64,000 nucleotides of DNA from NCBI RefSeq assembly GCF_963576615.1, contig NC_088711.1:38374621-38438620 (forward strand), in the 5' to 3' direction. The translations under genes were made by a program, and so were the position numbers. The stretch comes from Watersipora subatra. Its lineage: Eukaryota > Bryozoa > Gymnolaemata > Cheilostomatida > Watersiporidae. Below, one piece after another: positions 1 through 62,910 of this stretch (its first letter is position 1; each line of letters starts with the position of its first letter). The notes beneath the pieces are model-generated. The model did not search any database. It worked only from the letters and a program-made list of their open reading frames with translations, and had not been told where the DNA came from.

Positions 1-2029
1 ATAGATACAGTAGTAATAGGTACAGCAGTTATAGGTACAGTAGTTATAGGTAATAGGTAGTTGTGTGTGTGTGCGCGCGCGCGTGCATACACACAATACA
101 TGAAGACATACATGTCAACAATGTTGAAAAAAACAATGTAAATTTACAACGTTTCAGGCTCAAACGAATTGAAGTTATTGGAGTTGTCCTATTATTGTAG
201 AGACAAATGATAATGAAATTGATATTCTAGGCACGGTCAAGTTCATGAAACTCATAATATTGAACAATTTTGCATTTTCTAAAACATTGTACCAAGTATT
301 CTGTTGTTACAATGTTGATGCATCGGCAGTATTGATTGAATGCAGACGTCGACATTCTTAGAACACTCATAAAACTGTATCAATGGCATTGATGTATATT
401 TCCTGTTTCACCATATTGATGGCAAAAAAGAATATTCTTCTGAAAGATATCTATACTAAGACTTGTGTACTATCAATTGTGTATTTCAGCTTCAGCTCAT
501 CACTTTACAAAATCTTTGAACATTCTGAATTATCCGAAACTTGCTCATTTCTGCATTTGTTTTCCAGGTCTCAAAGACCTGCTCAAGCTGCGCCCCGAAT
601 ATTTGTATTTATCCTTCCACACATGACAAACATTGCTTTTTATTCTGTGACACAAACATACTACATCTATCATTGTATGTTTCAGTTTATGATCTTTCTG
701 TTACTACAACCTCCAGTTCACTATCCCTATTCCTCTGCAATACTATTAGATTACTAACTTTTAAAACATGTTTGTCCAACTCAATAATTACCTATTTCTG
801 TCTATTCATTTTTCTTCTTTTAGACATATAATATAATAATAATATAATATAATAAAAACATAATTTTGTTGATTATTACTAATAGCAATAAAAACTATAC
901 ATTACATACCACTTTTTGTCTATGGCCTGTGTGTTTTGACACGGTATATACTAACAGTAGCAGTAATGTGGTTGATGCTAAACAGGCTTTGTATTAAAGG
1001 CTGTTCAACATTACATTGCCTTGGCGGTATATTGCCAAAGCAGAAGCAGTATTAGAATTCTGTATAGCAAAACATAATGGCAACATTATAGCCTTTTTAT
1101 GAGCTACGATGAACATAAAAACGCATGAAAATATATCGATCTTGAAAAACATGTTAGGAAATGCTTCATGTAGATAAGATCTAGGTATAGCAGAACTTGA
1201 AGACCATAACTTGATATGACAATAAGGCCAGTTCACACTACATTGCTGTATGTCAGAGTTGTTCTCTCAGTGATAATTCATGAATTATGTGCACTATAAA
1301 CTGATGGCATTGTCAAGGTAAGGTCAAGGTGAGGTGCATACATCAATTAAGATTTAAGCTGTCAAACGTTTTTAATAGTTCGCACAGCATCCACAACAGC
1401 CTGCGCAATGTGCACACTTCGGGGATGGTGATTAGCCGTCGTAGATTGCTCGACCTACACATATATTGTATATCTTGATCATTACTAGTATTGGCTAGTA
1501 TTTCATTGTTTCCAAGAGCACATTGTATAATGAGAATGTTATATTATGGACTGGTCATTGAAGTAAACGCGGATGGGTTTGTGGGAATGTGAACATTGTT
1601 ATCACAGATGATCACTGAAGGATTGTGTGATTAATACGGACATGCAGTGATAGAGTGTGTACCAGCCTTTAAGGAATAGCTCAACATCTGCAGAAGCTTC
1701 TTGGAAACTCACTTCAGATCAGCATGGAAACTCAATGGGGTGGAGAGGCTGCCGCCAGCTGCCCGCACCAACAAACTTCTGACATTCTCTTATTATCAAC
1801 ACTGATCTTTTTAAACTAAGTCACTGAGTAGAGCTCAAACTTCTATCTTGGTACAAGTTTTGATCCTGACAACCTTCACTCTATTAGTGATGGTATTTTA
1901 TATATCTTATATGAGCTGCTTTTTATGACTTTAGCCCTTTCTACCTGTTATATTAATAATTTGAGAGGGTGTATGTCACATCACTGCTGTCATTACTGGT
2001 TTCATTTTTGAAAATGATTACAAGCATTT

Positions 2030-2160
2030 TCGACACTATTATTTGTTAACAAAAGTATTTTTTCACGCGGTCATTTGTTAAAACCAATACATGTTAACAT
2101 TAGCATTAATTAACATTGACACTTGCTAACGCCGGCATTCATTAACGCAAGCCCCATTTG
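2030..2160. repeat. Degenerate array of GTTAAC-containing motifs
   Basis: Repeated short motif of the type ttgttaacactagcattt, much diverged. Same array in U2 (22470-22610), U3 (40860-41000) and U4 (56900-57020). Confidence 0.5.
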
Positions 2161-2801
2161 TTATGCCCTAACTTAGATTTAAGCAACTTTTTATTTATAC
2201 CATGGTACTCTTCAATTAAAACTTACATACAGCTAACAATAAGTTTGAGCATTATAGACATATTAAATGTCTTTAAAGAATTTTTCGTTTCAAAAGTCCA
2301 CTTGTTATTTCACCTTGTCAAATTGAAATACTTACAAAACTTTCAAAAGCGTCCAGTTGTTTTGTAACTAGTACAATGTTGTTTGGTAAAGTCAAAAGGA
2401 ACATTTTGTGATCTGGTAAGGTTTACCCAGGTTTCTCATAGAACATCCATCGACATTCCTAGTCAAAGTGTAGTTGTACAAAGGAATGTATTATATCTGT
2501 TTTATTCACAGATTAATTCTGAAACTGACGGTAAAAAATAACATAGCCTTCCAACTAGGCTTACTTTGATCGCAACATAGATTATGACTCTAGCCATAAA
2601 GAGACAGCTCCATAAAAAATATACAGATTCAATCCGAGGTTGTTCTTAAATCCATGTTAATTATACCAATAACAAGACTTTATCTGGCTATGTTATGCTG
2701 TCCGTTTACCAGGGTTTGTGAGAATTAGTTTTTAAATCTTAAATTTTAAATCTTCTAGAAGAATCTAGAAGTTTTCCAAAGAATGAATTATATGGATAAA
2801 C

Positions 2802-2901
2802 CTGCTGAGCTGGAGATCCTTCACTGTCAAATATAGCTCCATTCTCATTGGCCCACTTAAATATGGATTCTCCAACTTGTATATCAACTTCTGAAGATTC
2901 C
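2802..2901 (-). pseudogene. Gene X internal exon, frameshifted (U1)
   Basis: Minus-strand exon with acceptor tgttacag at 2902 and donor cagcag|gtttat at 2801. It reads FKWANENGAIFDSEGSPAQQ at the end but has a one-base deletion upstream relative to U3 and U4 (100 bases against 101), so the incoming phase no longer fits. Downstream gene X exons are deleted in U1. Confidence 0.35.
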
Positions 2902-4217
2902 CTGTAACAATAATATATTAATAATTCGTAATTGTAGTGAGACTACAATAAACTATTCAAGATGTCAAATAGATGTACAAGGGGTACATTGCACTACAAA
3001 AGGCATTACCTAATTTCGTATAAAACAGTAGTAAGGTGCTCCTTAGGCAAGTATAACAATTAACTAGACAACCTCCAGAGTATCAAGGTGAATATCAAGT
3101 GGAATACTATAAACTATTGTCAAGATGGCAGACTGTAAAGTTCAATTGTCTAGCACACAAGTTATATTCTTAAAAAATATTTGTTAGTAGACAAAGAAAG
3201 TAACTCCAAAACTCTTTTAACGCTGTGCAGCCTATCAGATTAGAGAGTACAAACACACAGAGGATTTACTTCATACATGTATAGTAGACATATTCATCTG
3301 TATGCTTATGAGGAAACAATGGTACTTTAGAGAACGCGTATGTAATCAGAATGAAGGTGCTCCAGAAAAGATTGGAAGTTGGTGGCTGTAGACTACTACT
3401 AGAGCCAGATTTCTAACAAAAGACTTGAAGATATAGTCATTTTTAAAAATATTCAGTAGTTGTTGAGACATACTATCACATTGTCAATTAACAACCAGCA
3501 AGATCCATGTTATGTATTCTATTTTTTCTAGAATTTCTGGGAGTCTTCATTTAGGGACTGACTTTTACTTTGTAAATCTAGAATAACATTTATGCATACT
3601 TTAATGAAATTTATGCAATCTAAATAAATATACATTTGCACAAGTAAAATCATACTTGTCATGGTATTTTCACAACAAATTGCTAAAAGTTTACTACTGA
3701 CTGTGATGGACCCAGACAAAGGACAACTTCATGTTTATGGTTGTAGCGCTGACAGAAGCCATTATATCTCCAGCATGCTATAACAATTCCATAATACTAA
3801 ATAAAAATTGATTATCAGATTACATGAATATACCTCATTCTTGGTGAAAGCGAGGTATTGACTTCCAAGAAAAATGTTGAGAATAGTCTTGTGTAGTTTT
3901 ACAGGAGATGTAAACAGAATGGACACAAAATAAACATAGAGCTAACATGTGGTTAACTTACAATGAACGTAGATTGAACACAGGGTTAGCATAGATTGGA
4001 CATCCAGTAAACATAGAGTAAGCATAATTGAGTATGACCAGCAATGTGGTAGAATATGGAAATGAAAATTTACATAGTCATTATATTTAACAGCGCTGAG
4101 AATTAGGACGTCCCAATCAGTCCTTATCAAAAAATGGCATTAAGAGAAGACGAACTGCTTAGAAATGCCAAGTCATGTTCTCACTTCCGAGTTTAGATGA
4201 TTGATGAGTATGAAAAA

Positions 4218-4277
4218 CTATATAAGGCTAATTACTTTACTCAGACATCAGATCAACTGCAAGCACAGAGGAAACAG
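4218..4277 (+). promoter_or_regulatory. TATA box and probable non-coding first exon, copy A
   Basis: A strong TATA box (ctatataagg, 4218-4227) is followed about 20-30 bp later by a probable start region (ctttactcagacatc) and then by a splice donor, gaaacag|gtaaat, at 4277/4278. The block is preserved in all four units. I infer that a short untranslated exon is spliced to the coding exon, where acceptor-like 'cttgtag' (ending 4883) and 'tttacag' (ending 4891) lie upstream of the ATG at 4923. A second related donor block (aacactgaggaaacag|gtacat) ends at 4616. Not proven without transcript data. Confidence 0.55.
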
Positions 4278-4922
4278 GTAAATGTTTACTATTTACTCAT
4301 ATATATTATTAATGCTGATTTCTTTAAGCTAGTAAAATAGAAGATAGTTTAATAGTAAGTTAGAGTAACACTCTTGAGATTAAAGACCAGCTGTTATATA
4401 CATCATTTTATTAGTTAACATCTAAATAAGACAGCAATCAGCACATAGTCAGCACCTCAGTAGCTGCTAGTCTAACAATAACGTTGAAAATGAACTACTA
4501 AAAATTCTGGGTCACTTTTTAACTCATAAATATTGGTCATTAATGAATATTGAAACATGCAGAAGACCAGTTAGTTGATGCAAACATTAGCTCACCTGCA
4601 AACACTGAGGAAACAGGTACATATTATTATGTATATATTTATTATTGAGTCATATATATAACATTAATGGGAGAGATTTCACTAAATGAGAAATACACAA
4701 ACTAGTTTGGTAGTGAGTTCAGTATACATTGCTGAGGTAGCAGGGTAACAACCGTTTAATATATCATTCTATTAGTTTAAATTTGGAAAAAATAGCAGCT
4801 AAAATACCAGCCTATAACTCTCTACTCTATTAGTGCTATTGTGTTGGTTAATTGTATTCATAATACATCCCTGTATCTTGTAGATTTACAGATTCTCTTA
4901 GGTCTACACATCTTCTACAATA

Positions 4923-7231
4923 ATGAAGTTTTTGGTAGTATTCATGGCTGTCTGCCTTGCTTTCCATCAAATCAGTGCAAGCGGCTATCAGAGCAGCAAC
5001 AGTTTCGGCAACTCTAGGTATGTGTGCTTGTTTTTCTTGTTTTCGGTGTCTTGTTTTCTGTTTTTTTTTGTTCTTTTGCTGATGAGAGAATATTATTTTT
5101 ATTCTAAACAACCTAAAGGAGATTTTGTTAGTCATTTAAGATTAACAATTGTCTGCAACCCTGTCAACTATTAAAATATGAGCGTATTCATGTACCTTGA
5201 ATCCTACACCTATACTCATACCTGTTGAAGCTTTCAACTAGTCTTATTCTTCCCATAATGCAACATAAATATTTCATATTTTATATATTATGCTTAAGAG
5301 TTGGAGGAACAAGATCTGGAGGATCACAGAGTGGATTTGGAAGAGGGCTTGGACAAGGATTTAGTGGTGGATCCAGCAGAGGCTTTGGTGGATCCAGCAG
5401 AGGTTTTGGAAGTGGATCAAGCAGAGGCTTTGGTGGATCGAGCAGAGGCTTTGATGGAGGATCCAGCAGAGGTTTTGGAGAAGGATCTAGGCAAGGGTTT
5501 GAGGGAGGATCTAGGCAAGGGTTCGGCGAATCTAGACAAGGGTTTGGAAGCGGATCTAGCCGAGGATTTGAAGGTGGAGCTGGCCGTGGTGGTTTCAGCA
5601 GCGGAGGCAGAGGTGGATTTAGCGGAGGTTCTGGAAGAACACATGGAAGATGTAAGTAATAATATTTCTAACAGTATTTTTTTTCAGTTAGTGTAGTAAT
5701 GAACTTATATTTCCTCACAGAAGGATAAGTACCTGTTATAGCTTGTGAATATATATTTATATACAGTCAAACATGGATAACTCGTCCACGGATAGCTCGA
5801 ACACATGGTTAATTCGAACATTTCCTTTGGTCCGTTCCCACGTAATGATAAATTGCTATAGATAACTCGAACTCAACACTGTTAATTCGAACTGTTTTTT
5901 TGCCCAACAGCTACCGAAACGGTTGTTTTCGCTTTAGAAAATCACTTTATTCAAAGCCATAGAGGTAAACTTCATCTTTTCGTAATTTATAAGCGTCGTT
6001 ATTACCACCATCGGCAAAATATTTTTGTCAACGACTTTTCTAAAAGTTTGGTGAATTTTGATTTATACTGCGATACGATGAATAGCACGGGCTAGCCGGG
6101 TCACGCGCGCAAGAATTTTCGCCACGCACATACAAAACAAAAATCGCATGTTGTTTTGTATGTGCGTGGCAAAAATCTTTGAGTGCGTGACTCGGCTAGC
6201 CCGTGATGAATAGTTTTCCGACGTTGATTCCGTGTTGAATCAACGTCGGAATGTTGAATGTTTAAAACGTCTTAAAAAATGTTGTAATTAAACGTATACG
6301 TTGTCTGAGCTACAAAAAACTATTCATCGTTTGACCTAAACACAGAATACGTGTGTACATTCAATAAGTATCTATTAAAAAAGCGTGAGTGATATAGAAT
6401 GTACCGTAAAACCTCGTAAAACTTCTAATTGAACTGCCCCGGAGTGTTGCTCTTAACGAATCCCAGGTAAAGTAAGGTAATCTGCATAAATTTCAAGAAA
6501 AAACGGCAAAATTGATCGTGGGTAAAACCCCAAAAGAAAAAAATGTCTTTTCTTTTGAGCATTTTAACAACGATCAAGTTTTGCCAATGTCAATCTAAAA
6601 AACGTCCTGGCAATAACATCACCTCAATTAACAAACCAATCTCAAGTGATAGAAAAATCTCTATACTTTTTCATGAAAACGTTTTAAACTTTACATTAGA
6701 AGCATTTAATTTGAAACAAGCCATTTGTGCTTTTGATTTATATTATAGTTTGTATATGTACATGTATCTACTAATAAATAAGTAAATATATGGACTTGTG
6801 ACAGTGCTCTGATAACTTGAATGCTCTGATAATTCGAACACTTTTGCTCGGTCCCTTGAAGTTCGAGTTATCCATGTTTGACTGTATATGTATATTAAAG
6901 CTTTTAATATTTTCATGAACACCTGAAAAAGTATTTACAGAAATTGTAAAGAAAAACTAAGGTTTTAGCAAATTTCAACATGAATTATTTTGGCGCTTTT
7001 TTTAATAATATTTCAATTTAGTTTTTAAATGATAACAAAATCTTTCAATATTTGCCAAAACTGGCTACATCTGAACTTTTATTTCTGATAACTTTCACAT
7101 AAAATCTACTGTGTGTCTATGCTTCTAATGAATGTTCAAATTTTGTACAACCTCTACGTCTATGGTTCTAAAGAGTGTTTGTTATTCATTTCATAATTGA
7201 CTGTCAATTTGATAATACTTTTACAGACTAA
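4923..7231 (+). CDS. Secreted glycine-rich repeat protein, copy A (three exons)
   Basis: Exons 4923-5017, 5299-5651 and 7227-7231 join in phase to give 150 residues. Residues 1-19 (MKFLVVFMAVCLAFHQISA) form a clear signal peptide with probable cleavage before SGYQ. The mature part is Gly/Ser/Arg/Phe rich with about nine GGSSRGFG-like repeats, then GAGRGGF and GGRGGF blocks, and no cysteine. Donors are tag|gtatgt and agat|gtaagt; the exon 2 acceptor reads aag where the other copies read cag, and exon 3 supplies only five coding bases, giving a final Tyr and stop. If intron 2 were retained the protein would instead end in Cys-Lys. Intron 2 (1575 bp) is enlarged by a transposon at 5764-6884. Such compositions occur in shell, silk, mucus and antimicrobial proteins; the function here is unknown. 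Confidence 0.78.
5764..6884. mobile_element. Pogo-like non-autonomous DNA transposon in intron 2 of copy A
   Basis: Starts cagtcaaacatggataactc and ends with the inverted form (gagttatccatgtttgactg), flanked by TA on both sides (5762-5763 and 6885-6886). Internal copies of 'gataactcgaac'-type motifs extend the inverted ends. CAGT ends and TA target duplication fit pogo/Tc1-mariner-type MITEs. Copies B, C and D lack it at the same intron position. No transposase reading frame is visible. It contains a nested element at 6086-6205. Confidence 0.8.
6086..6205. mobile_element. Nested foldback MITE, 120 bp, with 8-bp duplication
   Basis: Long near-perfect inverted repeat: left arm begins cacgggctagcc, right arm ends ggctagcccgtg, with ttgttttgtatgtgcgtggc pairing near the centre. 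The flanks atgaatag (6078-6085 and 6206-6213) are a direct 8-bp repeat, as expected for hAT-type insertion. It sits inside the pogo-like element. Confidence 0.7.
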
Positions 7232-7401
7232 ATCTATGGACACCCTTCACAACCTGCCTACACTGACTTCCTGCTGTCATATCTGTTTGATAGGATGTTG
7301 AGCATTTCATTTATATGTTAATGTAACATGTGAATACTAAGTTATACTACTTTTAATGTTTATTATCTGTTTTTACCATTTCTATCACTTGTTGATTTCA
7401 A

Positions 7402-7407
7402 AATAAA
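7402..7407 (+). terminator. Polyadenylation signal AATAAA, copy A
   Basis: Canonical AATAAA about 170 bp after the stop, followed by a T/GT-rich stretch (tgtatttgttct). The same signal and surroundings are kept in copies B, C and D. Confidence 0.65.
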
Positions 7408-8157
7408 TGTATTTGTTCTATGATATTACTTTATAATAAGTTTACATTGTTTAACAACTAAAGTCATGCATCACAAGCAAATAATTAAAATTTTTAACAT
7501 AAACTGAGAAATGAAATAAGTAAAAGGTTGGCAGGTTAGCAATGCTTAGATAACAGCAGTTACAAATATTAGTTGAAATGTTATTTAATTGATGTACTGG
7601 ATAGAATTTTAGTAAACTTGATTTAAGATTTGGTTTCGCCATGTTTCTTGTGATGCAAACCAACAGCGAAAATCCAACAAATAAGGAATGGCATATGTTT
7701 ACCTTATTAGGCAACCATCTTAGGATTAAAGGCAAGAGATGACTACAATATTAGTACAGTAGACTATATTTTTCACAGTTTGTGCTGACAATATAAATAA
7801 GCAGAAAGCAAGCAAACATTTAAAATACATACATGTAATTCATATATTAGTTCCCAGCAGTTGGGGAACAATTCCCACAAAACCTACTTGAAAACAAAAT
7901 ATAAAGCAAACTTTTATAGCAAATGCAAGGCTAGAGACTGCCATTCATTTTCAAAAGATTATTTGTCTTTTCTCAAACTGACCTCAAACAGGACTAGATG
8001 ACATGAAAAATGTATTTGCAGTATCAAGAGTGAGGATTAGATAGGAAAATTTACAATTTAAAAGGCAGATTATGTCTCAAACACTCAGGTTGTGCCATTA
8101 CCTGTCAAACTTCAGAATGGTCTGCTTTGCCAGTTTGATTAGGATAATGCTTATATG

Positions 8158-9700: not shown

Positions 9701-10908
9701 ATTAACGTTCCAGTTCTTCAAATTTAGGCCAGCGAATAATTTAGAAATGTTACATGCATGTTTATATGTTGATGGCTTGAGATTAGTTAGGCTTTGTTTG
9801 TAACAGTAACAAATTAAACTGAGATACAAAACTACTGGCACGTACACAGGGTAGATGTTTCTTTCAGACATTTTACACTCAACTTATTAGTCTAAAAAAT
9901 AATGGTAAACAATCCATTCAAACCAAACTACTACAAAACAAATTAAAAAAAAAACTATCAAGTTATTGTTGTTGAAAGTAGATTGTAGATGTGTATTGGA
10001 ATTTTAAACAAAGAACAGTTCATAACAACTGAATGAATGACTGAAAAACAAAAACAAAGGTTTTGCGCCATCATAACCAACTTTCTATCTTTTAAAACAA
10101 TAATTGAACAATTCATTTTTACTTTTTTCAAGCTAGAAGCTTAGCAAATTAAATCTTGCAGAGAATTCTTTTAAAATACTTGCCCTTGACCTTTTGCAGA
10201 TCATCAGAGTGTTGCCCATTTCACCTTGTCACTTTTAACCTTGATTTGCATTAACACTACTATACAATAATGTTCATTGTGTTCAACTTTGCTATTTTTT
10301 TAACTTGGCGCTTTAGTTTGTAAATAAAAACTACAAATTGAATGAATTATATATAAATCAAAAACCAGTAAAATTAACAAAAATGATAAAGAAAATTAAC
10401 AGATGATGATTTTCAGTTTAGCACAATTCAGTAGAATGTTTCCACAGTGTCTACCATCAACTCCATCAAATGAGCCAACAAATGTCAGTGCCTGAAGGTG
10501 GTAGTAAGTGTCCATATATTTACTATGAAGAAAATATGAATCAACTGATAAGTAGCATTAATAAATCTACAGTGAGTTTAGTAGTTGACTTAGAAGTAAA
10601 ACAAATAAGACTGGGGAATTTTTCACATCATCAAAATAACGTTCATTTTGATACCCAAAATATATTTAACTATTCATATTGTCTCATATTTTAAGAGATG
10701 TACATGTATGGCAGTTATTACATCATAACTTTTTACAAAATGCAGGTACTGTGATATATAATATGTAATACAGTTTTAAAGTTTTGAGTTCAATGTATAT
10801 TAGGAAAAGTTAAACAACTTACTGAAATATACAACTTTGGAATAATAAAAGTACAAACTTAGCCATTCTGTGACTAAACTTTACTTTAATAAATTATTTA
10901 TAGTTTCA

Positions 10909-11771
10909 TATTGTTGAGCCTTTTTCAGACTCTGCTTCAAACCCTTGGTCCAATCCTTGTTTAACTATTTGACCAGACTGAGGTTCAAACTATCCACTAG
11001 CTTCTCCTCCAAACCCTTGGCTAGATCCTGGTTCAACTCTTTGACCTGACTGAGGTCCAAACCATCCACTAGCATCTCCTCCAAACCATTGGCTAACTCT
11101 TCTTTTATGTTCGCTGTTAAACCCCTTCCCTTCAACCTTTCCTTAAATTGTCCTTTTGATCTGAACGAGATCTGAACCTTTGTCTAGTTTCTCCAAGTCC
11201 TTGGCATGATTTTCCTCCCATCTCTTGACTGAACCTGTTTCTAACTTTTTGACTGAGCTGAGATCTAAAACCTTCATTAGCCCCTCATCTAAATCCCTGA
11301 CTGGCTCTTCCTCCAACATTTTGACCTGCTCCTCCAACACCTTGGCCAGCTCTTTTCTTATATCTCTTTCTCCAACCGCTCTCTGTAATCCTTCAGATCA
11401 TACTCCCATAGACTTACTCTTTTTGACTCTGAAGTATCATAACCAAGCTATAAGACATCTCTGTTAAATTAGCAAAAAAATAGGCAAATTTACAAGGGTT
11501 AAAGCTTAAACAGGAATTCATATACATTTGAATATAAATAACTCAATGTGTTTTAGAAGGTTTGTGATATTAGGTGACTAACATACACTATAGCTGCAAT
11601 TTCTCCCAAGTAGAAATAGTACATGATCAATGCAAACAATGAAGTTTAGAGCTAAAATGGTCAACCTTATCCGAAGTTACTAAAGCTGTTGCTGCCATGA
11701 TAGCCATTTACTGTGATCTACAAAAAGCAGAAATCGAGGCAGAAAACCATAAGTTCTACCAAAAGCTTCAT
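10909..11771 (-). pseudogene. Inverted, decayed paralog of the glycine-rich gene (U1)
   Basis: On the minus strand the ATG at 11771 starts a recognisable but damaged copy of the signal-peptide exon (ATGAAGCTTTTGGTAGAACT), and the preceding 5' leader also matches the plus-strand genes. The frame stops within about 18 codons; an 8-bp insertion relative to the U3 copy is seen. The exon 2 equivalent (about 11440 down to 10909) keeps pieces such as SQGFGGEASG and GPQSGQ but carries a TGA where GVRSGG begins in U3, a two-base frameshift, a TAG further on, and has lost the gtaagt donor. A shifted acidic frame stays open for 65 residues (11143-11340), which I regard as a by-product of the repeat. Convergent with copy A. 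Confidence 0.7.
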
Positions 11772-11999
11772 TGTAACAGAAGGTATCTAGACTTTAGATA
11801 ATCTGTAATTCTACAAGATACAGGGTTGAGCTGGTAAGACCATGTACTGTAGATATAATCAGTCAACACCACAGCAAATAGACAAAAACAACTACTGAGA
11901 TGTTGACTATATGTTGATTACTATTTTCTTTAGATATTAAATTGGTATAATGATGTATATAAAAGCTTGTCTTTAATTACAAGAGTGTTACACTAAAGT

Positions 12000-14900
12000 T
12001 ATTACCAAACTAATTTGTGTAATTTTTTGCTCAGTAAAATTCTTAGCATTAATAATATATATCACTAATTATTAAACATACATATTATTAGTGTAACTAT
12101 AATGTAATTTTAAGGTATAACTTATATATAACCATATAATGTATAGTGTAACTTTAATTATTTAATAACTGACCTTTTATATTTTGAAATATTCATCAAT
12201 TGAAAATATTTAAATCATAGGAAGTGACTCAGTATTTTTACTAACGCCTCATCGACTTTATTATAACACCCATATGATAAGCTTATTTATAGCTTTATCG
12301 GGAATTCTCAAGCATATTGTTTTTTATACACTTATCTGACAAATGACATTTTTTCATTGTTTTACAAAATAAATGATCTCTCAGCTTCATTGGATTTTTG
12401 TATTCACTAAAGTTAGTTTAAAAAATATGAATTGAATAAAGTCATGACAACTCTGCATAAACTATTCATAAGGTTTAACTTGTTCTTTGACTCTTAATTG
12501 TCAAGTTTATGAACCTAAAATGAAAAAGCTGGTTATTGTAACAGAGAGTAAAATGTATAAAAATGTAATTTTCTTTAAAGACCATAAGACTACGTTACAA
12601 GCTTTGAAACATTCACTTTAATAACTTCAACTACGCAATGACCTGTAATTTGTTAACCTAATTAAGGATACTACGCTCGGCAATATTAATCAGCTTGTAA
12701 CTTGTTTTAGTTGGATGTTACACTGTATCCTCAATGATAGAAATCAATGATGGTACAATTGAAGTCTTATAAAAAACTGGATTGTGAAAAAGTAAACAAA
12801 TCTGCTTCAAAATTATAGACAAAGTTCCAGAAATCTTTTTGTCAATATAAAACAAGCCCATTAGTAAAAGACTATGTGAACTGAAGCACTTAACTGCAGT
12901 TGTAAAATCTTCTATTGTACTAACCAATAGTAACAAATGACAGCTATAGGAGTTTTGAGTAAAAGCCTTTAGGAAACCGTCTAGATCTGTCTAATAGACT
13001 AAATTTTGGCAAAAAGAAGTTTGTGGTTATGGAACATCATGCTTGTATTCTAAATATCTCACTCCGATCTATTAGAGCTTTAAACATGTAATTCAGCAAA
13101 AAACTAAGTCGCATTTTAACCCCCAAACCTGCATTAACTATGAGATATGAACATCTCTCTTTTTCTTAGTCACTTAACAAGTGACAAAGGAAAAGAGAAA
13201 TTGCATCAGCATATATTTTGCAAAGTTCACCTGACTTGGAACTCTCATTAGAGTTCAACATCTAATTTCGGTGCCATCACTTTCCATGACAAACAGTAGT
13301 ACAGTTATGATTGATTATATATTAGTGTATAATCTGTCAATCAACAACCCTTTCTAGAGGTAGCATTATCTTGTCATCCACCGCTGCTTCATAGTAATTA
13401 ATAGTGAACAAGGCCATACACTGAGACATTCTGTCTAGGATCTCCATAAAATTAATGAAGTAATAGATTTTAAATTAAGCCATGAGGTAAGAGTTGTTAG
13501 ATCTGTTGTAATAGTAACTATAATGAGAAAGTGATTATGTGATAAAAAAGTAACCATTTATAATACTGAGACAAAGCCAGCAGTCTTTTTATTGTCAATC
13601 GTAGGCTTCGGTAATTTACACTTATAAGAACCAAACACCAATTAATGGAAGAGAATGACGAACATCACAGTTCAGGTGCTTATAACTAATTTTATTTATG
13701 AGTACACAGTCTGCTGAAATCTGAAATATGAATCATTTTAAAGTGACAAAGGAAAAGAAAAATTTCATCAGTGTATATTCTAATTTCAAGAGGGGGTTTT
13801 TGGGGAATCTCACTAAAATAATATAATAATTTGAAAATTACAGCTCAACTTTATCTAAGGTTTGATTAGAGCCTCTTAAGAACCTTCTAGAGTTGTTATT
13901 TTCAAGGAGAAAAGAGATCGCTAATTATAAAACTTGATGCATTCATTAAAATATCTCAACCAAGTCTATATAAGCTGTTTACCACCTACTTTAGCAAAGA
14001 AATAAAATTTCAATTCAACTGCCAACTTACATTAGCTATGATTTATGATACAAAAGCGACTCAAAAGTTTCAACATCATAAAGATTTTGTAAGTTTTTTC
14101 GGATGACGAAACCTAATTAGAATTCAGTATCTATTTCCAGCTTCATCACCTCTCGTGGTACAGGATATCACAGTTTAGATTGATTGATATTTAATTAATG
14201 TATGGCCTGTTACAGTAGTACTGATATAATTAAGAGATTATACATTAATTTATGATCTGTCAGCAACCTTGTTATTGGCGTCAGTCTCCGCCATCTAGTA
14301 ATCTTAGTAGATAGGGTCATAAGTTTTATGATACAAAAGAACAATTGCATTGACATTTGACTCTGTGCCTTGAATAGATGCTTATAGATATTATCTACAT
14401 TAGGACATTTTTAGAACTCATAACTAAAGAGGCGTTGGTTATAAATAACCAGATACAGATCGTATCCACAGATTACCACTAAAACTATTTTCATCCAGGT
14501 ACCAAAACATATATCATACGCTGCAATGTTTATTGTTACCTGAATATACAGTATATAAAATATGCATCTATTAGTTTTTAAATATTTATGAAAAAAACTC
14601 AAGATTTCTTCAGTAATATTTGTACACAAACGTATCACATTCTGTTCTTGGTAGCTGGTGGTGGAAATAATTGTTTGTTTTTTTAAAAATGGGAATAGCC
14701 ACACATTTCATTTATATGACTACAAAAACCAAGCTTGCTGACCTTATCAGCGGCGGTTCTCAGAGATGCATAAAAGTCATTTAAGCAGTCACAAACAAAA
14801 TTCATTAAAACTCCATATTTGAAAAATAAACACATTTAATTTGTTTTATTTTACAGTGATCAGTGTAGAAAACATAAACTAAAACGGTTCAAAAGGTTCG

Positions 14901-26958: not shown

Positions 26959-26964
26959 AATAAA
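26959..26964 (+). terminator. Polyadenylation signal AATAAA, copy B
   Basis: AATAAA in the same context as copy A, about 170 bp after the stop codon. Confidence 0.65.
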
Positions 26965-43087: not shown

Positions 43088-43716
43088 GTAAATGTTTACT
43101 ATTTACTCATATATTATTAATGCGGATTTCTTTAAGCTAGTAAAATAGAAGATAGATTATTAGTAAAGTTGGATTACTTCTCTTGGGATTAAAGACCAGC
43201 TGTTATATCCATCTTTTCATTAGTTAACATCTAAAGAAGACAGCAATCAACATATAGTCAGCATCTCAGTAGTTGCTAGTCTAGCAATAACGTTAAAGAT
43301 GAATTACTAAAAATTTTGGGTCACTTCTTAACTCTTAAATATTGGTCATTAATGAATATTGAAACATGCAGAAGACCAGTTAGTTGATGCAAACATTAGT
43401 TCACCTGCAAACACTGAGGAAACAGGTATATATTTAGTATCGAGACATATATATAATATTAATGCGAGAGATTTCACTAAGTAAGAAATACACAAACTAG
43501 TTTGGTAGTGAGTTTAGTATAACATTGCTGAGATGGCAGGGTAACAACTGTTTAATATATCATTCTATTAGTTTAAATTTGACAGAGATAGCAGCTAAAA
43601 TACCAGCCTATAACTTTCTACTCTTAGTCCTATTACGTTGGTTAATTGTAACCATAATACATCCTTGTATCTTGTAGATTTACAGATTCTCTCAGGTCTA
43701 CACATCTTCTACAATA

Positions 43717-44894: not shown

Positions 44895-45064
44895 ATCTAT
44901 GGACAACCTGCACAACCTGCTTACACTGACTTCCTGCTGTCATATCTGGTTGATAGGATGTTGAGCATTTCATTTATATGTTAATGTAACATGTGAATAC
45001 TAAGTTATACTACTTTTAATGTTTATTATCTGTTTTTACCATTTCTATCACTTGTTGATTTCAA

Positions 45065-45070
45065 AATAAA
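45065..45070 (+). terminator. Polyadenylation signal AATAAA, copy C
   Basis: AATAAA in the same context as in the other three copies, followed by tgtatttgtttt. Confidence 0.65.
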
Positions 45071-46859
45071 TGTATTTGTTTTATGATATTACTTTATAAT
45101 AAGTTTACATTGTTTAACAACTAAAGTCATGAGTCACAAGTAAATAATTAAACTTTTTAACATAAACTAAGAAATGAAATAAGTAAAAGGTTGGCAGGTT
45201 AACAAGGAGTAGATAATAACAGTTACAAATATTAGCTAAGATGTTATTTAGTATTTAGTATTGGATAAAATCTTCGTACTCTTGATTTAAGATATGGTTT
45301 CACTATATTTCTGGTAATGCAAACCAACAGCTAAAAAAACCAACAAATAAGGAGTGGCATATGTCTACGTTACTAGGCAACCATCTTAGGATTAAAGGCA
45401 AGAGATGACCATAATACATAATGGCCATAATAATGTATTAATATAGTAGACTATATTTCTCACAGTTTGTGCTGACAATATAAACAAGCAGAAAGCTAGC
45501 AAACATTTAAAATACTTAATTCATATGTTAGTTCCCAGCAGTTGGGGAACAATTTCCACAAAACCTACTTGAAAACAAAATATAAAACAAGCTTTTATAG
45601 CAAATGCAAAGCCAGAGACTGCCATGCATTTTCAAAAGATTATTTGTTCTTTCTCAAACTGACCTCAAACAGGACTAGATGACATGAAAAATGTATTCGC
45701 AGTATCATAAAGTGAGGATTAGACTGGAAAATTTACAATTTAAAGCGGAGAGGCAGATTACATCAATTAAAAGGCAGATTACGTCTCAAACACACCAGTT
45801 GTGCGAGATTGCCTGTCAAACTTCAGACTGGTCTGTTTTGTTAGTTTGATTAGGGTTGTGCTTATATGTTGGTGGGGGTTTCTGACATCCCCGTAGGCCT
45901 TTTTAGGAATTCTAACCACAGTCAATTGTCCACTTGTTAGGCACACTAAACACTACAGCATGGCAGCTCATGGAAAGATACCCACAAGTTACGAATGTCT
46001 GAATTACTCTTCTGTTTCGCTGTCATACAATGTAACTCTTTCGATACAGACAAAAAACACCATTAGTATTATATTTTGAATAGAATGAGTCTCTATATGA
46101 TTTCTATGGGGCTTCTTTAGAGGGTTCCAAAGCAAATATATTGCCTCATTCTAATACATGCATACGCACCAAAATAATTAATATTTGGCAAAGCGTGAGC
46201 TGATCTTTTATGTCATGGTTGCGATGAAAGAACGAGAAAATAAATTATATGTACATGTACATGTAATTGGATATCATATATCTTGTCTAGGGCCTCATTA
46301 TTATTATTCATTGAGGTTGTTTGCTTTAAAAAGCTTAAAAATATATCTACAACTGATCAAAAAGTGAGAAGATAAATTAATTGAATACTGTTCATTATGT
46401 TTTTTTTGAGATGCTAGCAGTAGCTAATAAAGCTGTAAAGTCAGTATTGGTTTAACGTTACAGCTACTAACATTTAGGCCAGCGAATAATTTAGGAATGC
46501 TACATGGATGTTTATATGTTTATAGCTTGAGATTGGTTAGGCTTTGTTAGAACATTAACAAATTAAACTGAGATACAAAACTACTGGTACGTACACAGGG
46601 TAGATAGTTCTTTCAGACAAATTACACTGAACTTATTTGCCTAAAAAGTAATAGTAACCAATTCATTTAAACTAAACTACTACTAAACAATTTTTTAAAA
46701 AGTTATTAAAATATTGTTGTTGGAAATAGAAAGATTCTAAAGTAAAGAGCGTACTTGACATACTTTGTATTACAGAGTGGTATTATTAATAGCTTCCGTG
46801 TATAATAATACATTTAAAAATGAACATACTCCAAGTTTTAGTTGATTTGATCAAAAACT

Positions 46860-48126: not shown

Positions 48127-49221
48127 CTTCATCATAAAATCATATATTGAAATGAAAGATGAGTCACTGATAAATGCATTGTCCTACATCCAAATATTGA
48201 CAATTGATACATATTGAGGATTTGGAAAAGACAGTGTTTGAATACAGAAATTAGTTAAGCAGCAAACATATAGAAACAGGTTTTGCTATTAGATTATCTA
48301 ACTTTTATAAGTATATAGACTTCAGGTAAGAAGTAAGTAGATATGCAAATCAATTTAATCTAATGCAATTTGAGTGCAACACTATTGTGATTAAAATTGT
48401 TTACTTTTGTATACAGAATTTTTTTTGGTCATAAAAATATAATGATATATATGCCTAAAAACTACTTTTGAAGTTATAAAAATGCAATCAGATGATCATG
48501 ACCCAATGTACGAGTATGCTTACAAAATATTATGTACTTACAAATCTTTAAATGAGGCAAGCTAATATAAACTAATTATCTGGTGATTTAAAGCTTAAAA
48601 ACTACGATTCTGAATATTTAGCTGTTCATCTATTTAGAGATAGTAGCCTCAGTAAGTGACTCTCTATCCTCAGAAATATAGGTATTACATGTACCTTTGA
48701 TTATTTATATAAACTAATAATTGTATCATATCAATTACTCTTTATACCAAAGCATGTTTAGCAATTATTCAGGGATAGACAGTTATTTTTAGCCTTTTAC
48801 CGCTTCATTTTGTTGTTTATGAATTGACAGCAATGACTTCAATGACCCTGTTGCAAACAAGAAAGTTGCAATTGAACAGAAGTAGAGTTACTGTATGCGG
48901 CAACTTCAAATACAATGTACGAAATCTCAAATATAAAATAAAAATTTTTATTAAATTAATTTTATTTGAAGTTGACTTAGGTTAAGCTAGACAAGCTGTA
49001 CCTCCATCATCACTTCAACCTGCATTTCATCTATCCACTATATCAGCAAGGAAATCTATATACACATATCACCAAAAATATCCATATACAGCAATCATCC
49101 AGTATATCTATATACAGATATCAGCAAGTATATCTATTAACAGCTATCAGAAGGATAAACAACAAAAGTCCTTATGTAATTTAATTATAAATGAATAACT
49201 TGATAAATATTTTGTACTTAC

Positions 49222-49983
49222 ATCTTGTTGAGCGTTTTCCAGACTTTGCTTCAGACCCTCGGTTAGATCCCTGTCCACTTCTATGACCTGACTGACGTTC
49301 AGACCATCCACTAGTTTCTCCTCTAAACCTTTGGCTAGCTCTTCCTTCATGCTTGCGGTTAAACCCCTTCCCATCCCTTTGATCTGAATGAGATGTGAAC
49401 CATTGTCTAGCTCCTCCAAATCTTTGGCTGGATTTTCCTCCCATCTCTTGACTAAGACCATCTCTAACTTTTCGACTGAGCTGAGATCTAAAACCTTCAT
49501 TAGCTTCTCTTCTAAATTTTTGACTGGCTCTTCCTCCAACACTTTGATCCGCTCCTTCAACACTTTGGCCAGCTCTTCTCTTACATCTCTCTCCAGCTGC
49601 TCTCTGTAATCCTCCAGATCTTACTCCCATAGACTTACTCTTTTTGACTCTGAAGTATCATAACCAAGCTATAAGACATCTCTGTTAAATTAGCAAAAAT
49701 AGGCAAAAATACAAGGGTTAAAGCTTAAACAGGAATTCATATACATCTGAATATAAATAACTCAATGTGTTTTAGAAGGTTTGTGATATTAGGTGACTAA
49801 CATACACTATAGCTGCAATTTCTCCCAAGTAAAATTAGTACATGATCAATGCAAACAATGAAGTTTAGAGCTAAAATGGTCAACCTTATCCGAAGTTACT
49901 AAAGCTGTTGCTGCCATGATAGCCATTTACTGTGATCTACAAAAAGCGAGGCAGAAAGCCATAAGTTCTACCAAAAGCTTCAT
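49222..49983 (-). pseudogene. Inverted diverged paralog of the glycine-rich gene (U3), best preserved
   Basis: Minus strand. Exon 1 candidate 49983-49931 (17 codons plus 2 bases, MKLLVELMAFCLAFCRS) would use a new donor, tcaca|gtaaat, because the old downstream donor is behind a TAA. Exon 2 is 49649-49222 (428 bases) with acceptor cttcag and donor agat|gtaagt, open throughout in the glycine frame (GVRSGG start, blocks such as SQRFRGETSG and GQGSNRGSEAKSG). With the new donor all phases match the plus-strand genes, giving about 160 residues before a third exon that I could not locate. Glu inside the signal core weakens export. It may be a rescued diverged gene or a pseudogene that happens to stay open; both sister copies are broken. 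Confidence 0.5.
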
Positions 49984-50019
49984 TGTAACAGAAGGTACCT
50001 AGACTTTAGATAATCTATA

Positions 50020-53000
50020 AATCTACAAGATACAGGGTTGAGCTGGTAAAACCATGTACTGTAAATATAATCAGTCAACACCGCAGCAAATAGACAGAAA
50101 CAACTACTGAGATGTTGACTATATGTTGATTACTATTTTCTTTAGATATTAAGTTGGTATAATGATGTATATAAAAGTTGGTCTTTAATTACAAGAGTGT
50201 TACACTAAAGTTATTACCAAACTAATTTGTGTAATTTTTTGCTCAGTAAAATTCTTAGCATTAATAATATATATCACTAATTATTAAACATACATATTAT
50301 TAGTGTAACTATAATGTAATTTTAAGGTATAACTTATATATAACCGCATAATGTATAGTGTAACTTTAATTATTGAATAACTGGCCTTTTATACTTTGAA
50401 ATATTCATCAATTGAAAATATTTGAAACATGGGAAATGACTCAGGATTTTTACTAATGCCTCATCGACTTTATTATAACACCCTTATGATGAGAACAGAT
50501 TGAGGCACTTTCATTCATAGCTTTACCAGAAACTCTCAAGCGCCCTGTTTCTTATACACTTACCGTATCTGACAAATGACACTTTTTTCATTGTTGTACA
50601 AAATACATGATCTCTCAGCTTCATTGGATTTTTGTATTCGCTAAAGTTAATTCAAAAAATATGAATTGAATTAAGTCATGATAACTCTGCATAAACTATT
50701 CATAAGGTTTAACTTGTTCTTTGACTCTTAATTGTCAAGTTTATGAACCTAAAATGAAAAAGCTGGTTATTGTAACAGAGAGTAAAATGTATAAAAATGT
50801 AATTTTCTTTCTTAAAGACCGTAAGACTATGTTACAAGCTCTGAAACATTCACTTTAATAACTTCAACTACGCAATGACCTGTAATTTGTTAACTTATAT
50901 AAGTATACTAAACTCAGATTTAACTTGTTTGTAGTTGGATGCTGCATTCCATCCTCAATAGTAGAAATCAATGATGGTACAATTGAAGTCTTATACAAAA
51001 CTGGATTGTGAAAAAGTAAACAAATCTGCTTCAAAGTTATGACAAAGTTCTAGAAATATTTTTGTCAATATAAAATAAGCGCATTAGTAGAAGACTACGT
51101 GAACTGAAGCACTTAACGGCAGTTGTAAAACCTTCTATTGTACTGACCAATAGTAACAAATGACAGCTATAGGAGTTTTGAGTAAAAGCCTTTAGGAAAC
51201 CTTTTAGATCTGTTTAATAGACTAAGTTTTGGCAAAAAGAGATTTTTGTTTATGGAACATCATGCTTGTATTCTAAACATCTCAGTCCGATCTATTAGAG
51301 CTTTTAACATGTACTTCAGTAAAAAACTAAGTCACATTTTAACCCCCAAACTTGCATTAATTATGAGATATGAATATCTCTCTTTAAGAGGCGGAACGAG
51401 ACAGGTTTTTCAAGTTCGAGACGAGACTCGAAACACTGTCTTGTAAAAATTCGAGACTCGAGACACGAGACAGTAAAATAATGAGCATTTGGTGATGATT
51501 TCACTACACAAGTACTAGCGTACTTGATACATATAGAATTAATAAACCTTTTTTTAAATTGTACTTTCACCTGATGTAAATGATTTAAATACCACATTTT
51601 AATAGTGATATGCATGTATTTTTTTGTAAACAAAAGTGACACAAACAGTTCTAAAATAGCGAAGTTATATATTTCAAAGAAATTTGAGCTTGATTGATAA
51701 TAATTATTATAAACAAAATGCTTTGTACATGTAAACTTTTACCATATATTGAATAGGTCTTACTTTTTATTGCAATGTGTAATGAAACTGATAGCCATCG
51801 CTCTACAAAAAATACTGCAACTAAAAGAACACACGATAACACTTTCATTCTTATTGTTTCATTAATGTTAAGTTTTATTTGTGTATTAACTGTAGTATGT
51901 GAATTATATTTAAATTGTACTCATGAAATTATATGACTTACTGTATACATGTACATGTATATTCTTATACTGAACTAGCAATAATGTCATTGTTAACTAA
52001 ACACGGACTATGGTCGACACGGCCTTTCGTTCGTTTCTCTGTGTCCGGGCAAGTTTTACCCGCAGTTGGTAGCAAATAAAAGAGGCCTGAATTTTATGAA
52101 GGGCAGTTGGTGTTAGGACATGATACAATAAGATAAAGACATTTTACCCGCAATAGTCTTATTTATTAAATCGGATTATCCGGAGGGTAATTGGATACAA
52201 CCCGGTATCTGTTTTAAGGACACAGAACCGAACTACAATATATTAACAGGGCCGTTGTCCGGACTACATGATTAGACTCGGTGGCTAACATAATCAATAG
52301 CAGCAGGTGGTAACGGACCAGGTATAACTTTGAAGGCAGTTGCCCGTAATCCATTCCAATATATGGAGTTGTTGTTACCGCGAGAAGCCATGTTTTAACA
52401 ACCGTGCGCAAGCGCTTTTGTACTATTTCCTGTCTCGAGTTTGGCAATAGTTAAGTCGAGATGAGACCGATACGAGACGAGACAGGTCGATACTCGAGAC
52501 GTCTAGTGTCTCGTTCCACCTCTACTCTCTTTTCCTTTGTCACTTAAAAAGTGACAAAGAAAAAGAGAAATTTCATCAGCATAAATTTTGCAAAGTTCAC
52601 CCTGACTTAGAAATCTCACTAGAAGTCAACATCTAATTCCAGTGCCATCACTTTTCATGAAAAACAGTAGTACAGTTATGATTGATTACATATTAGTGTA
52701 TAATCCCCCTGTAACATTATTCTGCCATCTACCACTGCTTCTTGGTAATTAATAGGGAACAAGGTCATAGACTGGGACATTTTGTCGAGTCTAAGGTTTC
52801 CATAAAAAATAATGAAAAGCAGAAGTGTGAACTGAGCTAAGAGTTAGGAGTTATTAGACACGCTATACAAAGCTGTGTACAGAGTCTTACAGTAAAGCCG
52901 CACTCTCTCTCTCCTATCAACCAGCTATGTTCAAGTTACTATCTTCAGTATTAACTTCATAGTTGCTCATCAGTCTAAATAAACCTTTTTTTGTAATAGG

Positions 53001-59361: not shown

Positions 59362-59421
59362 CTATATAAGGCTAACTACTTTACTCAGACATCAGATCAA
59401 GTGCAAGCACAGAGGAAACAG
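59362..59421 (+). promoter_or_regulatory. TATA box and probable non-coding first exon, copy D
   Basis: TATA box ctatataagg at 59362-59371 and donor gaaacag|gtaaat at 59421/59422. A second donor block ends at 59759 (aaacag|gtatat). Conserved with the other units. Confidence 0.55.
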
Positions 59422-60053
59422 GTAAATGTTTACTATTTACTCATATATAATAATAATGCTGATTTCTTTAAGCTAGTAAAATAGAAGATAGTTTAATAGT
59501 AAGTTAGAGTAACACTCTTGGGATTATAGACCAGCTGTTATGTACATCATTTTATTAGTTAGCATCTAAAAAATTAGCAATCAACATACAGTCAGCACCT
59601 TAGTAAATGCTAGCCTAACAATAAAGTAGAAGATGAACTACAAAAAGTTCTGGGTAACTTCTTAACTTTTAAATGTTGACCCTTAATAAAGATTGAAACA
59701 TGCGAAAGACCAGTTATTCGAGGTAGGCATTAGTTCACCTGCAAATACTGAGAAAACAGGTATATGTTTAGTATCAAGTCATATATATATAATAGTAATG
59801 CGAGAGATTTCACTAAGTGAGAAATACACAAATTAGTTTGTTAGTGAGTTCAGTATACATCGCTGAGGTGGCAGGATAACATCTGTTTAATATATCCTTT
59901 TGTTTGTTGAAATTCATAAGAGATAGCAGCTAAAATATCAGCCTATAAATCTCTACTCTTCTAGTGCTATTACACTGGTTAATTGTATCCATAATACATC
60001 CCTGTATCTTGTAGATTTACAGATTCTCTTAGGTATACACATTTTCTACAATA

Positions 60054-61227
60054 ATGAAGTTTATGGTAGTATTCATGGCTGTCTGCCTTGCTTTCCATCA
60101 AATCAGTGCAAGCGGCTATCAGAGCAGCAACAGTTTCGGCAACTTTAGGTATGTGTGCTTGTTGTTCTTTTTTTCGGTGTCTTATTTTCTGTTTTTTTTT
60201 GCTGATGAGAGAATATTATTCTTATTTTAAACAACGTAAAGGAGATTTTGTTAGTCACTTAAAATTAACAACTGTATACAACCCTGTCAACTATTAAAAT
60301 ATGAACGTATTTGTGTACTTTGAATCCTACACTTACGCTCATATCTGTTGAAATTTTCAACTAGTCTTATACTTCCCACAATGCAACATAAATATTTCAT
60401 ATTTTATATATTATGCTTCAGAGTTGGAGGAGCAAGATCTGGAGGATTACAGAGTGGGTTTGGAAGAGGGCTTGGACAAGGATTTAGTGGTGGATCCAGA
60501 GGAGGCTTTGGTGGATCGAGCAGAGGTTTTGGAGATGGATCCAGCAGAGGCTTTGGAGGTGGATCCAGCAGAGGCTTTGGAGGTGGATCCAGCAGAGGAT
60601 TTGGAGGAGGATCTAGCAGAGGTTTTAGAGGAGGGTCTAGTCAAGACTTCGGCGGATCTAGACAAGGGTTTGGAGGCGGATCTAGCCGAGGATTTGGAGG
60701 CGGAGCTGGCCGTGGTGGTTTCAGCAGCGGAGGCAGAGGTGGATTTAGTGGAGGTTCTGGAAGATCATATGGAAGATGTAAGTAATAATATTTCTAACAG
60801 TATTTTACTTTCAGTTAGTGTACTAATGTATTTATATTTTGTCACAGAAAGATATGTACTCATTATAGCTTGTGAATATAAATATCTATTAAACCTTTTA
60901 ATATTCTCATGAAAACCTGATGTAGTATTTACAAAAATTGCAGAGAAAAACCAAGATTGTAGCAAATGTCAACAAGAATTATTTTGGCGTCTTTTTCAAT
61001 AATTTAATAATTTTTTAATTTAACTTTTCAAAATTAACAGAATTTTTTAATATTTTCTAAAGCTGGCTAAATCTGAACTTTTATTTCTGACGACCATCGC
61101 ACAACATCTATGTCGATGCTTCTAATAAATGTTCATTTTTGTACAGCCTCTATGTTTATGGTTCTAAAGAGTGTTTGTTATTTGTTTCATTATTAACTGT
61201 CAATTTGATAATACTTTTACAGACTAA
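60054..61227 (+). CDS. Secreted glycine-rich repeat protein, copy D (three exons)
   Basis: Exons 60054-60148, 60422-60777 and 61223-61227 give 151 residues. The signal peptide differs from copy A by L4M. This copy is the most regular: several successive GGGSSRGF repeats, fewer acidic or Gln substitutions, and SYGR instead of THGR before the last Tyr. Introns are 273 and 445 bp with canonical borders. Intron 2 and its borders are identical to copy C over 470 bp although the coding repeats differ at many sites, so exon 2 and intron 2 have different recent histories. I consider all four copies potentially functional because each keeps frame, signal peptide, splice sites, TATA box and polyadenylation signal. 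Confidence 0.8.
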
Positions 61228-61397
61228 ATCTATGGACACCATAGACAACCTGTCTACACTGACTTCCTGCTGTCATATCTGATTGATAGGATGAAGGTCA
61301 CTTCATTTATATGTTAATGTAACATGTGAATACTAAATTATACCATTTTTAATGTTTGTAATCTGTTTTTACAATTTCTACCACTTGTTGATTTCAA

Positions 61398-61403
61398 AAT
61401 AAA
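61398..61403 (+). terminator. Polyadenylation signal AATAAA, copy D
   Basis: AATAAA in the same context as in copies A-C. Confidence 0.65.
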
Positions 61404-62910
61404 TGTATTTGTTTTATAATCTTACTTTATTATAAGTTTACAACATTTAAAAACTAAAGTAATGCATCACAAGCAAATAATTAAAGTTTTTAACATAAAC
61501 CACGAAATGAAATAAGTAACAGGTTGGCAGGTGAGCAATGCTTAGATAATAACAGTTACAGATATTAGTTAAGATGTTATTTAGTTGCTGTATTGGATAA
61601 AATCTTAGTAAACCTGATTTAAGATATTGTTTAAGATAACTGTTCTGAAATTGGATTAGATGGCATGAAAATGTATTTACAATATCAAAAGTGGGTATCA
61701 GGTTGGAAAATTTACACTTTAAAAGGCAGATTACGCCTCAAACACTAAAGTTGTGTGATTGCCTGTCAAACTTCAGACTGGTCTGCTTTGTCAGTTTGAT
61801 TAGGAGAGTGCTTATAGGTTAGTGGCTGTTTTTGACATCCCTGTAGGGCGTAGGCCTTTATGAGAGCTGTACTATCACTCTATTGTCTACATGTTATGAT
61901 ATGAGGTTATGGCTGCTCATGAAATTATACCCACAAGTTAAGAATGTCTGATTTACTCATCTGTTTCACTGTTATAATTTCTTTCGTACAGACAAGAAGC
62001 ACCATTAGTATTATATCTTAAATATAATGAGTGTCTATGCTTTCTATGGGGCTTCTTTAGAGGGATCCAAAGCAAATATATTGTCCACTCTAAATACATG
62101 TATCTGTACAGAAACAATTAATATTTGGCAAATCATGAGCTAATCTTTTATGTTGTGGTTGGGATAAAAGAACGAGAAAGTCATTCAATTATACATGCAA
62201 TTGGATATCATATCAATTGTCTAGGGCCACATTATTATTATTTATTGAAGCTGTTTGCTTTAGAAAACATTATAAAGAAGAAGAAGATGAATCAATTGAA
62301 TACTGTTTATTATATTTTTCCTGAGATGCTATCAGTAGCTAAAGTCAGTGCTGGTTTACTACTTACGGTTTTGCTACTACTATTTAAGTCAGCGAATAAT
62401 TTAGAAATACTACATGAATGTTTATACGTTGATGGCTTGAAATAGATTAGACTTTGTTAGAACATTAAAATTAAACTGAGATACAAAACTACTGGCACGT
62501 ACACAGGATAGATGGTTCTTTCAGACAAAATACACTCAACTTATTAGTCTAAAAAGTAATAGTAACCAATCCATTCAAACTATACTACTACAAAACAATT
62601 CTTTTTAAAAATGATTACAATATTGTTGCTGTAAATAGAAAGATACAAAGGTAAAAAGCGTACTTGGCATACTTTATACTACATAGTAGTAACATTAATA
62701 TCTTCCATGTATAATAATAGTACATTTAAAAATGAACTCACACCAATTTTTACATTAATTTGATTAGAAAGCATCGCTATTTACTTATCATTTGTGATTG
62801 TTTTTGATGTTTGAAGCAATCTGACTGCCAGGATGTTTCAAGATTTAAATCGATAAAACTTGATTACAGTTATAGCGCACAGACCGAGTAAAAGTGCAAT
62901 AATGTCTATA

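Follow-up and report, generated by a model that had tools for sequence, protein, structure and literature searches.

A putative supercluster of secreted glycine-rich protein genes in the bryozoan Watersipora subatra

The window analyzed here is a 64 kb stretch (33.4% G+C) of contig NC_088711.1 of the Watersipora subatra assembly GCF_963576615.1, where it occupies C4:38374621-38438620 (C4 being our label for this 67 Mb contig). A reading made from its letters alone, hereafter the sequence-only reading, had described four tandem units (U1-U4), each with one complete gene for a secreted glycine-rich protein, here called A. We conclude with moderate confidence that the A genes belong to a supercluster encoding related secreted glycine-rich proteins, which would share one four-exon template, turn over by birth and death, and have a structural or matrix role. 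The tandem array itself is real. The earlier reading therefore saw a genuine feature and judged its conservation rightly, and it covered one corner of a larger cluster.

Comparison of the window with itself by blastn revealed collinear head-to-tail blocks of ~71-91% identity between units across its whole length, which bears out the proposed four-unit arrangement (the check suggested with that proposal was for the window plus flanks). The start codons of successive A genes are 20.7, 18.1 and 16.3 kb apart, and 76-98% of each unit is matched by another unit, with U4 counted together with its Tc1 element. Over aligned blocks, the units diverge by 10.9-15.5% depending on the pair, figures that are approximate because unit pairs were assigned by alignment start, and they contain private insertions of up to ~1.1 kb. 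Given this divergence and these insertions, neither a collapsed assembly nor haplotypes joined end to end would be expected. Repeats this large are hard to assemble, and a stretch of 481 bp over which U3 and U4 do not differ could be a mis-join. Nevertheless, with units ~11-15% apart, private insertions, and copies that continue outside the window on the same contig, one of them inverted, we find it hardly credible that the array is an artefact made of one locus or of two haplotypes. A leftward continuation, previously suspected, is confirmed by the tail of a further unit at the left edge of the window and by A copies in the flank. On the right, homology to the other units ends at 62770 and a Tc1-type transposase frame was found where a Tc1 element had been placed. 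However, the array goes on beyond this element, with an inverted copy next after A4.

To place the array in its genomic context, the window's own assembly (783.7 Mb, 239 contigs) was searched. Only the best candidates were scored in these searches, so all copy counts are lower bounds. With the A3 gene as query at least 26 matches were obtained, including eight A copies that are 86-100% identical to A3 and lie at C4 38.343-38.475 Mb, with matches to a paralogue, B, between and beside them. In window coordinates, the four A copies in the flanks are at -30495 (inverted), -10837, 85348 and 99893. The reading frame is open in seven of the eight copies, the exception being A6, the last of those listed, which is broken by two stops. 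Among the matches listed, all strong ones fall within ~270 kb of C4.

The A genes are predicted to consist of four exons: a tiny non-coding exon preceded by a TATA box, a signal-peptide exon, a glycine-rich exon, and a last exon that supplies a tyrosine, the stop codon and AATAAA (Table 1). This prediction comes from comparing the eight A copies, and the evidence for it is an open frame together with a TATA box, donors, acceptors and AATAAA that are conserved across copies. All four window frames are open and their splice phases are alike, as previously described, but the gene model proposed at that time was incomplete. In the shared template, the signal-peptide exon ends in phase 2 and the repeat exon in phase 1. 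The TATA box, TATATAAG, is indeed kept in all four window copies, although it sits 684-704 bp 5' of the ATG, ahead of the predicted non-coding exon. It is followed by an initiator-like site whose spacing looks right by eye, the ~28-base non-coding exon and a CAG/GTAAAT donor (the slash marks the splice site), and only 8 of 95 columns of this upstream block vary among the window copies. The TATA spacing served to place the start of exon 1, and an acceptor-like site that of exon 2. At the 3' end, the glycine-rich exon finishes at a GTAAGT donor, and the acceptor TTTTACAG lies ~450 bp downstream in 8/8 copies (~1.6 kb in A1, insert included), followed by ACTAAATC in seven of them and AATAAATC in A6. 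The C-terminus had been read as GRCK-stop. With a donor at that position and a last exon that starts AC-TAA, the protein is instead predicted to end in GRY-stop, the GRCK ending is probably unused, and the mature A protein would therefore be without cysteine. The claim of a preserved polyadenylation signal holds, as the block bearing AATAAA is identical in all eight copies. We also weighed a 37-base intron just past the stop codon (GTAAGT...TTTCAG) but rejected it in view of the far acceptor TTTTACAG, which is conserved in every A copy, with ACTAA next in seven and AATAA in A6, the broken one. Intron 1 contains a second instance of the GAGGAAACAG/GT block from the non-coding first exon, this time with no TATA box, giving donor-like sites at 4617 and 43426. 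It is possibly a duplicated first exon, either dead or alternative.

Table 1. Coordinates of predicted genes and other features (window positions; negative values lie in the left flank).
Feature	Position	Strand	Details
Gene A1	4219..7416	+	TATA 4219; exon 1 (non-coding) ~4250-4277; exon 2 (5' untranslated region and signal peptide) 4892-5017, ATG 4923; exon 3 (Gly-rich) 5299-5651; exon 4 7227-7416
Gene A2	24948..26973	+	TATA 24948; exon 1 ~24979-25006; exon 2 25601-25726, ATG 25632; exon 3 26007-26335; exon 4 26784-26973
Gene A3	43029..45079	+	TATA 43029; exon 1 ~43060-43087; exon 2 43686-43811, ATG 43717; exon 3 44092-44444; exon 4 44890-45079
Gene A4	59363..61412	+	TATA 59363; exon 1 ~59394-59421; exon 2 60023-60148, ATG 60054; exon 3 60422-60777; exon 4 61223-61412
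B1, decayed, in U1	10880..12181	-	TATA 12181, ATG 11771, repeat exon from ~11428; signal-peptide exon with stop, donor lost; repeat exon with frameshifts and stops
B2, decayed, in U2	31060..31902	-	ATG 31845; signal-peptide exon with deletion and stop; stop in repeat exon
B3, decayed, in U3	49150..50393	-	TATA 50393, ATG 49983; signal-peptide exon with frameshift and stop, donor lost; repeat exon still open
U3/U4 identical tract, 481 bp	44436..44916 (U4 from 60769)	+	background divergence ~12%
1.1 kb insertion with terminal inverted repeats	5763..6878	+	in intron 3 of A1
Tail of further unit left of U1	1..3688	+	98% matched by other units; A copies at -10837, -30495 in flank
Tc1-type transposase frame	63413..64000	-	runs to 64387 outside window (length read from flank); PF01498 and PF13358 matches

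Divergence by region was calculated as the mean over pairs of the seven open A copies, omitting A6 because of its stops and cutting out the A1 insert. The promoter with exon 1 (4.6%), the 5' untranslated part of exon 2 (5.3%), the signal-peptide exon (3.8%), the glycine-rich exon (7.7%) and the last exon (7.9%) are all less diverged than the introns (11.1, 9.4 and 13.1%) and the flanks (16.1 and 18.9%). A codon model fitted to the same seven copies gave an omega (replacement-to-synonymous rate ratio) of ~0.5, with a log likelihood of -1103.49 when omega was free and -1109.40 when it was fixed at 1, each the best over a grid of kappa values (twice the difference = 11.8, p 0.0006). The glycine-rich exon alone gave p 0.0012. 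Within U3, the least-diverged 150-base windows include the glycine-rich exon and a block ~690 bp upstream of the ATG, and the window at 44950 is also low in divergence. Without selection, four open A frames would be expected with a probability of ~8e-5, or ~0.01 when stops alone are considered, for a star tree and with the indel rate set by us near the observed one. Taken together, these data support mild purifying selection on A and retention of its product.

Several observations weigh against this view. The divergence ranges of A introns and exons overlap when single pairs are considered, and U3 has low-divergence windows outside gene A as well, at 49650 (in B3) and 53850. The codon model assumes conditions that gene conversion and a repeat-rich exon breach. 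The constraint on A is mild: with a local substitution spectrum, a replacement deficit at p < 0.05 was found in three of six window pairs, and the A1-A3 pair has 2 synonymous and 13 replacement changes. For the three open B genes, omega is ~0.8 and not distinguishable from 1 (p 0.22). Such mild constraint, the two stops of A6 and the broken B genes in three window units are what passive tandem duplication would leave behind, with no selective benefit and with the open frames as mere survivors. We nevertheless judge this explanation very improbable, given the chance estimate of ~8e-5 (at our chosen rates) for four open frames at ~11-15% divergence, the conservation of exons and promoter relative to introns, and the likelihood-ratio result. 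A second, Leu/Glu-rich frame of A exon 3, which is open in all four window copies and largely open in B2 and B3, was rejected as a by-product of composition. Codon-order shuffles of A1-A3 leave it open every time (100%), as do 29% of those of A4, and no constraint on it was detected among the four window copies.

The sequence-only reading had proposed selection for either dosage or diversity. Selection to retain the product is supported by the open frames, the omega value and the lower average divergence of exons and promoter. As for diversity, the average omega of A is below 1 and the A proteins vary in the number of repeats and by scattered replacements, so selection for diversity is unsupported for A, at least as an average rather than at single sites. 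Dosage or retention thus appears to fit A better than diversification does, dosage itself being what we infer. A rival reading is that the cluster is a diversifying immune family like SpTransformer (Sp185/333), where diversity in both copy number and sequence is driven by tandem repeats. Passages of work on this sea urchin family discuss gene conversion and segmental duplication (PMC5491942), and it is termed unique to euechinoids in part of another report (PMC11810900). The resemblance lies in the clustering, in a signal-peptide (leader) exon followed by a single repeat-bearing, glycine-rich exon (PMC5491942, in part), in the presence of broken copies, and in the identical tract shared by U3 and U4. 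This tract runs from the 3' end of the glycine-rich exon through intron 3 into exon 4, comprises 470 bases in the blastn alignment, and would arise under independent change with a probability of ~2e-27. It probably reflects recent gene conversion, which would have covered the 3' end of gene A. However, SpTransformer genes are described in the passages at hand as having two exons, RGD and histidine-rich regions, as opposed to four predicted exons here, with RGD absent and histidine at most 3% in all 10 A and B proteins. Moreover, the A products resemble one another, and an immune family of this type therefore strikes us as highly unlikely.

The description of one complete glycine-rich gene per unit was correct for A but left out the paralogue B, an inverted and decayed copy of which lies on the minus strand in each of U1, U2 and U3. 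The signal-peptide exon of B is frameshifted or stopped in all three, and its donor is altered. No constraint was found on the glycine-encoding (G) frame of the window B copies. A hint of constraint on their Leu/Glu frame in the raw counts was discarded after it vanished with a local substitution spectrum (P 0.73, 0.47 and 0.085). The window on its own makes B look like a fossil, but open loci in the flank show otherwise. Nine B loci were found in the whole cluster, three of them open (68787, 109822 and 121649 in window coordinates) and six broken (near -3.6 kb, B1-B3, 78368 and 92226), compared with seven of eight open for A (Fisher p 0.050). A genome search with B returned at least 13 matches, with one weak match elsewhere (C7, E 4.7e-4). 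Either TTTTACAG or TTTTGCAG, then ACTAA, was found in four of five B copies checked (B2, B4, B7 and B8, not B3). Because B is broken throughout the window yet open at a third of its loci cluster-wide, the locus points to birth-and-death turnover rather than simple amplification of a single gene. Along the locus, A and B form convergent pairs (A-> <-B) with many duplications.

A third family, C, with GGYGRGG repeats, lies to the right of the A/B cluster and has the same gene design as A and B. A genome search with C1 gave at least 15 matches, namely eight signal-peptide exons and seven repeat exons forming seven pairs, all at C4 38.50-38.61 Mb. In the C genes whose letters were read, a TATAAATAG box lies upstream, a GTAAG donor follows the signal peptide, and exon 3 ends TATT/GTAAGT in 3/3. 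The last exon (ATTAG) was found in two of the three, the third gene running off the piece read. The template thus carries three repeat types: GGSSRGF in A, GSQSGQRVGQGS in B and GGYGRGG in C. A bolder version of our reading, which we put forward tentatively, is that one four-exon cassette was reused within these ~270 kb for three chemically different products, A (rich in Arg and Phe), B (Gln and Arg) and C (Gly and Tyr). On this view, the locus would be a co-regulated set of genes for an extracellular material of several components, with the repeat exon as the only part that varies. Weak matches to the glycine-rich exon at C4:38679188, 38704043 and 38716030 (minus), at 200-240 kb to the right of the last A copy, are possible further family members.

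With a presumed cut at residue 20, the mature A proteins have 121-138 residues (Gly 38-47%, Ser ~20%, Arg ~12%, Phe 11%), a pI of 12 and a charge of +11 to +15. The B products contain 24-28% Gly together with Gln and Arg, and mature C1 has 66 residues, with 61% Gly, 27% Tyr and 11% Arg in its composition. The N-terminus is hydrophobic in all three families, by inspection only, and the signal peptide of C1 resembles those of A1 and B8 (9 of 19 and 11 of 19, respectively). The predicted C-terminal ends are GRY (A), STRY/SSRY (B) and GYY (C). No Pfam family was matched at E <= 1 by A1, B7 or C1, and no PDB entry by A1.

Shematrins end in a basic, RKKKY-type C-terminus, from which the GRY, STRY and GYY endings differ. 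Part of a pearl oyster report describes five Shematrin genes in tandem on two scaffolds (PMC4759782), and these share with the present cluster secreted, glycine-rich, repetitive products and clustered genes. Passages of a study on Hydractinia describe clustered Shematrin-like and Prisilkin-like genes, expressed in stolon cells alongside chitin-synthesis genes, with a cluster that likely arose by tandem duplication and a second one close by (PMC11876637). Applying the XGnX rule (X = I, L, V or Y) from that paper, we counted nine motifs in C1, two in B8, and none in the other two of three B or in any of seven A proteins. By motif, C can thus be called Shematrin-like, with XGnX singlets and duplets as in Hydractinia, and A and B cannot, a point against the structural reading, despite the likeness of their signal peptides and the gene design they have in common with C. 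The Hydractinia genes likewise form a genomic cluster encoding secreted glycine-repeat proteins, but an RGF family like A and inverted A/B pairs do not feature in the passages of PMC11876637.

Cationic glycine-rich proteins are also typical of antimicrobial peptides, which counts against a structural role. The main rival is that the cluster encodes glycine-rich antimicrobial peptides and that tandem duplication broadens or boosts defence, as with the nlp-29/caenacin genes of Caenorhabditis elegans or arthropod glycine-rich peptides. Passages of PMC2453101 describe the nematode peptides as Gly/Tyr-rich and encoded by adjacent duplicate genes, and C, a secreted Gly/Tyr-repeat family, is close to them in composition. 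Glycine-rich antimicrobial peptides are also reported, in the parts of the literature consulted, from scorpion, brine shrimp and woodlouse, and the products here are likewise small, secreted and cationic. On the other hand, the nlp-29 cluster is reported to show positive selection (PMC2453101, in part), whereas A is conserved on average. In addition, the length of mature A and its regular repeats are more like those of a material protein, A and C lack a Pfam match, and their peptide strings were not found in the literature searched. On balance, an antimicrobial role seems to us unlikely, though it deserves serious weight.

Under the structural reading, unequal crossing-over would multiply the A/B pair, and selection would keep enough A copies while surplus B copies decay. 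With less certainty, we suggest that the proteins are disordered, cationic in A and B and Gly/Tyr-rich in C, and are secreted in large amounts as components of an extracellular material, candidates being cuticle, periderm, shell matrix, tube, adhesive or mucus. For a structural component secreted in quantity, copy number would serve dosage. Similarity is a poor guide to secreted low-complexity proteins, and their evolution is difficult to trace. Here, the signal-peptide exon, the last exon and the arrangement of exons and introns provide handles that searches with the repeats do not, so that one locus reveals how members of the family arise and die and how their repeats turn over. Should the products form a material, this locus would show how gene copy number sets the composition of that material.

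Other features of the region are less central. The insertion in intron 3 of A1 resembles a pogo/Tigger-type miniature inverted-repeat transposable element, and a shorter relative, a 420-base stretch, lies at 16288-16706. The Tc1-type transposase frame has 325 codons without a stop and may belong to a young element. No tRNA genes were found in a search of the window, nor any Rfam match at gathering scores, and the assembly lacks COX1. In two pieces left of the cluster, long frames that by eye resemble retroelement polyproteins were seen (L020 3615-7768 and L024 5789-9292). No array genes were found in these two pieces, apart from one weak, stop-bearing B match in L020. An apparent new gene in the right flank, a Val-rich frame at 125258-125887 (window coordinates), was rejected as a (TAG)n repeat. 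Positions 379-909 form a dispersed repeat with matches of ~74-82% identity on at least 10 contigs, among the matches listed. Simple repeats comprise a 600-base array of a 12-base unit, CACACACACACG, at 35509-36105, a (GTAT)n repeat at 17046-17207, and six copies of a 67-base unit at 21288-21684.

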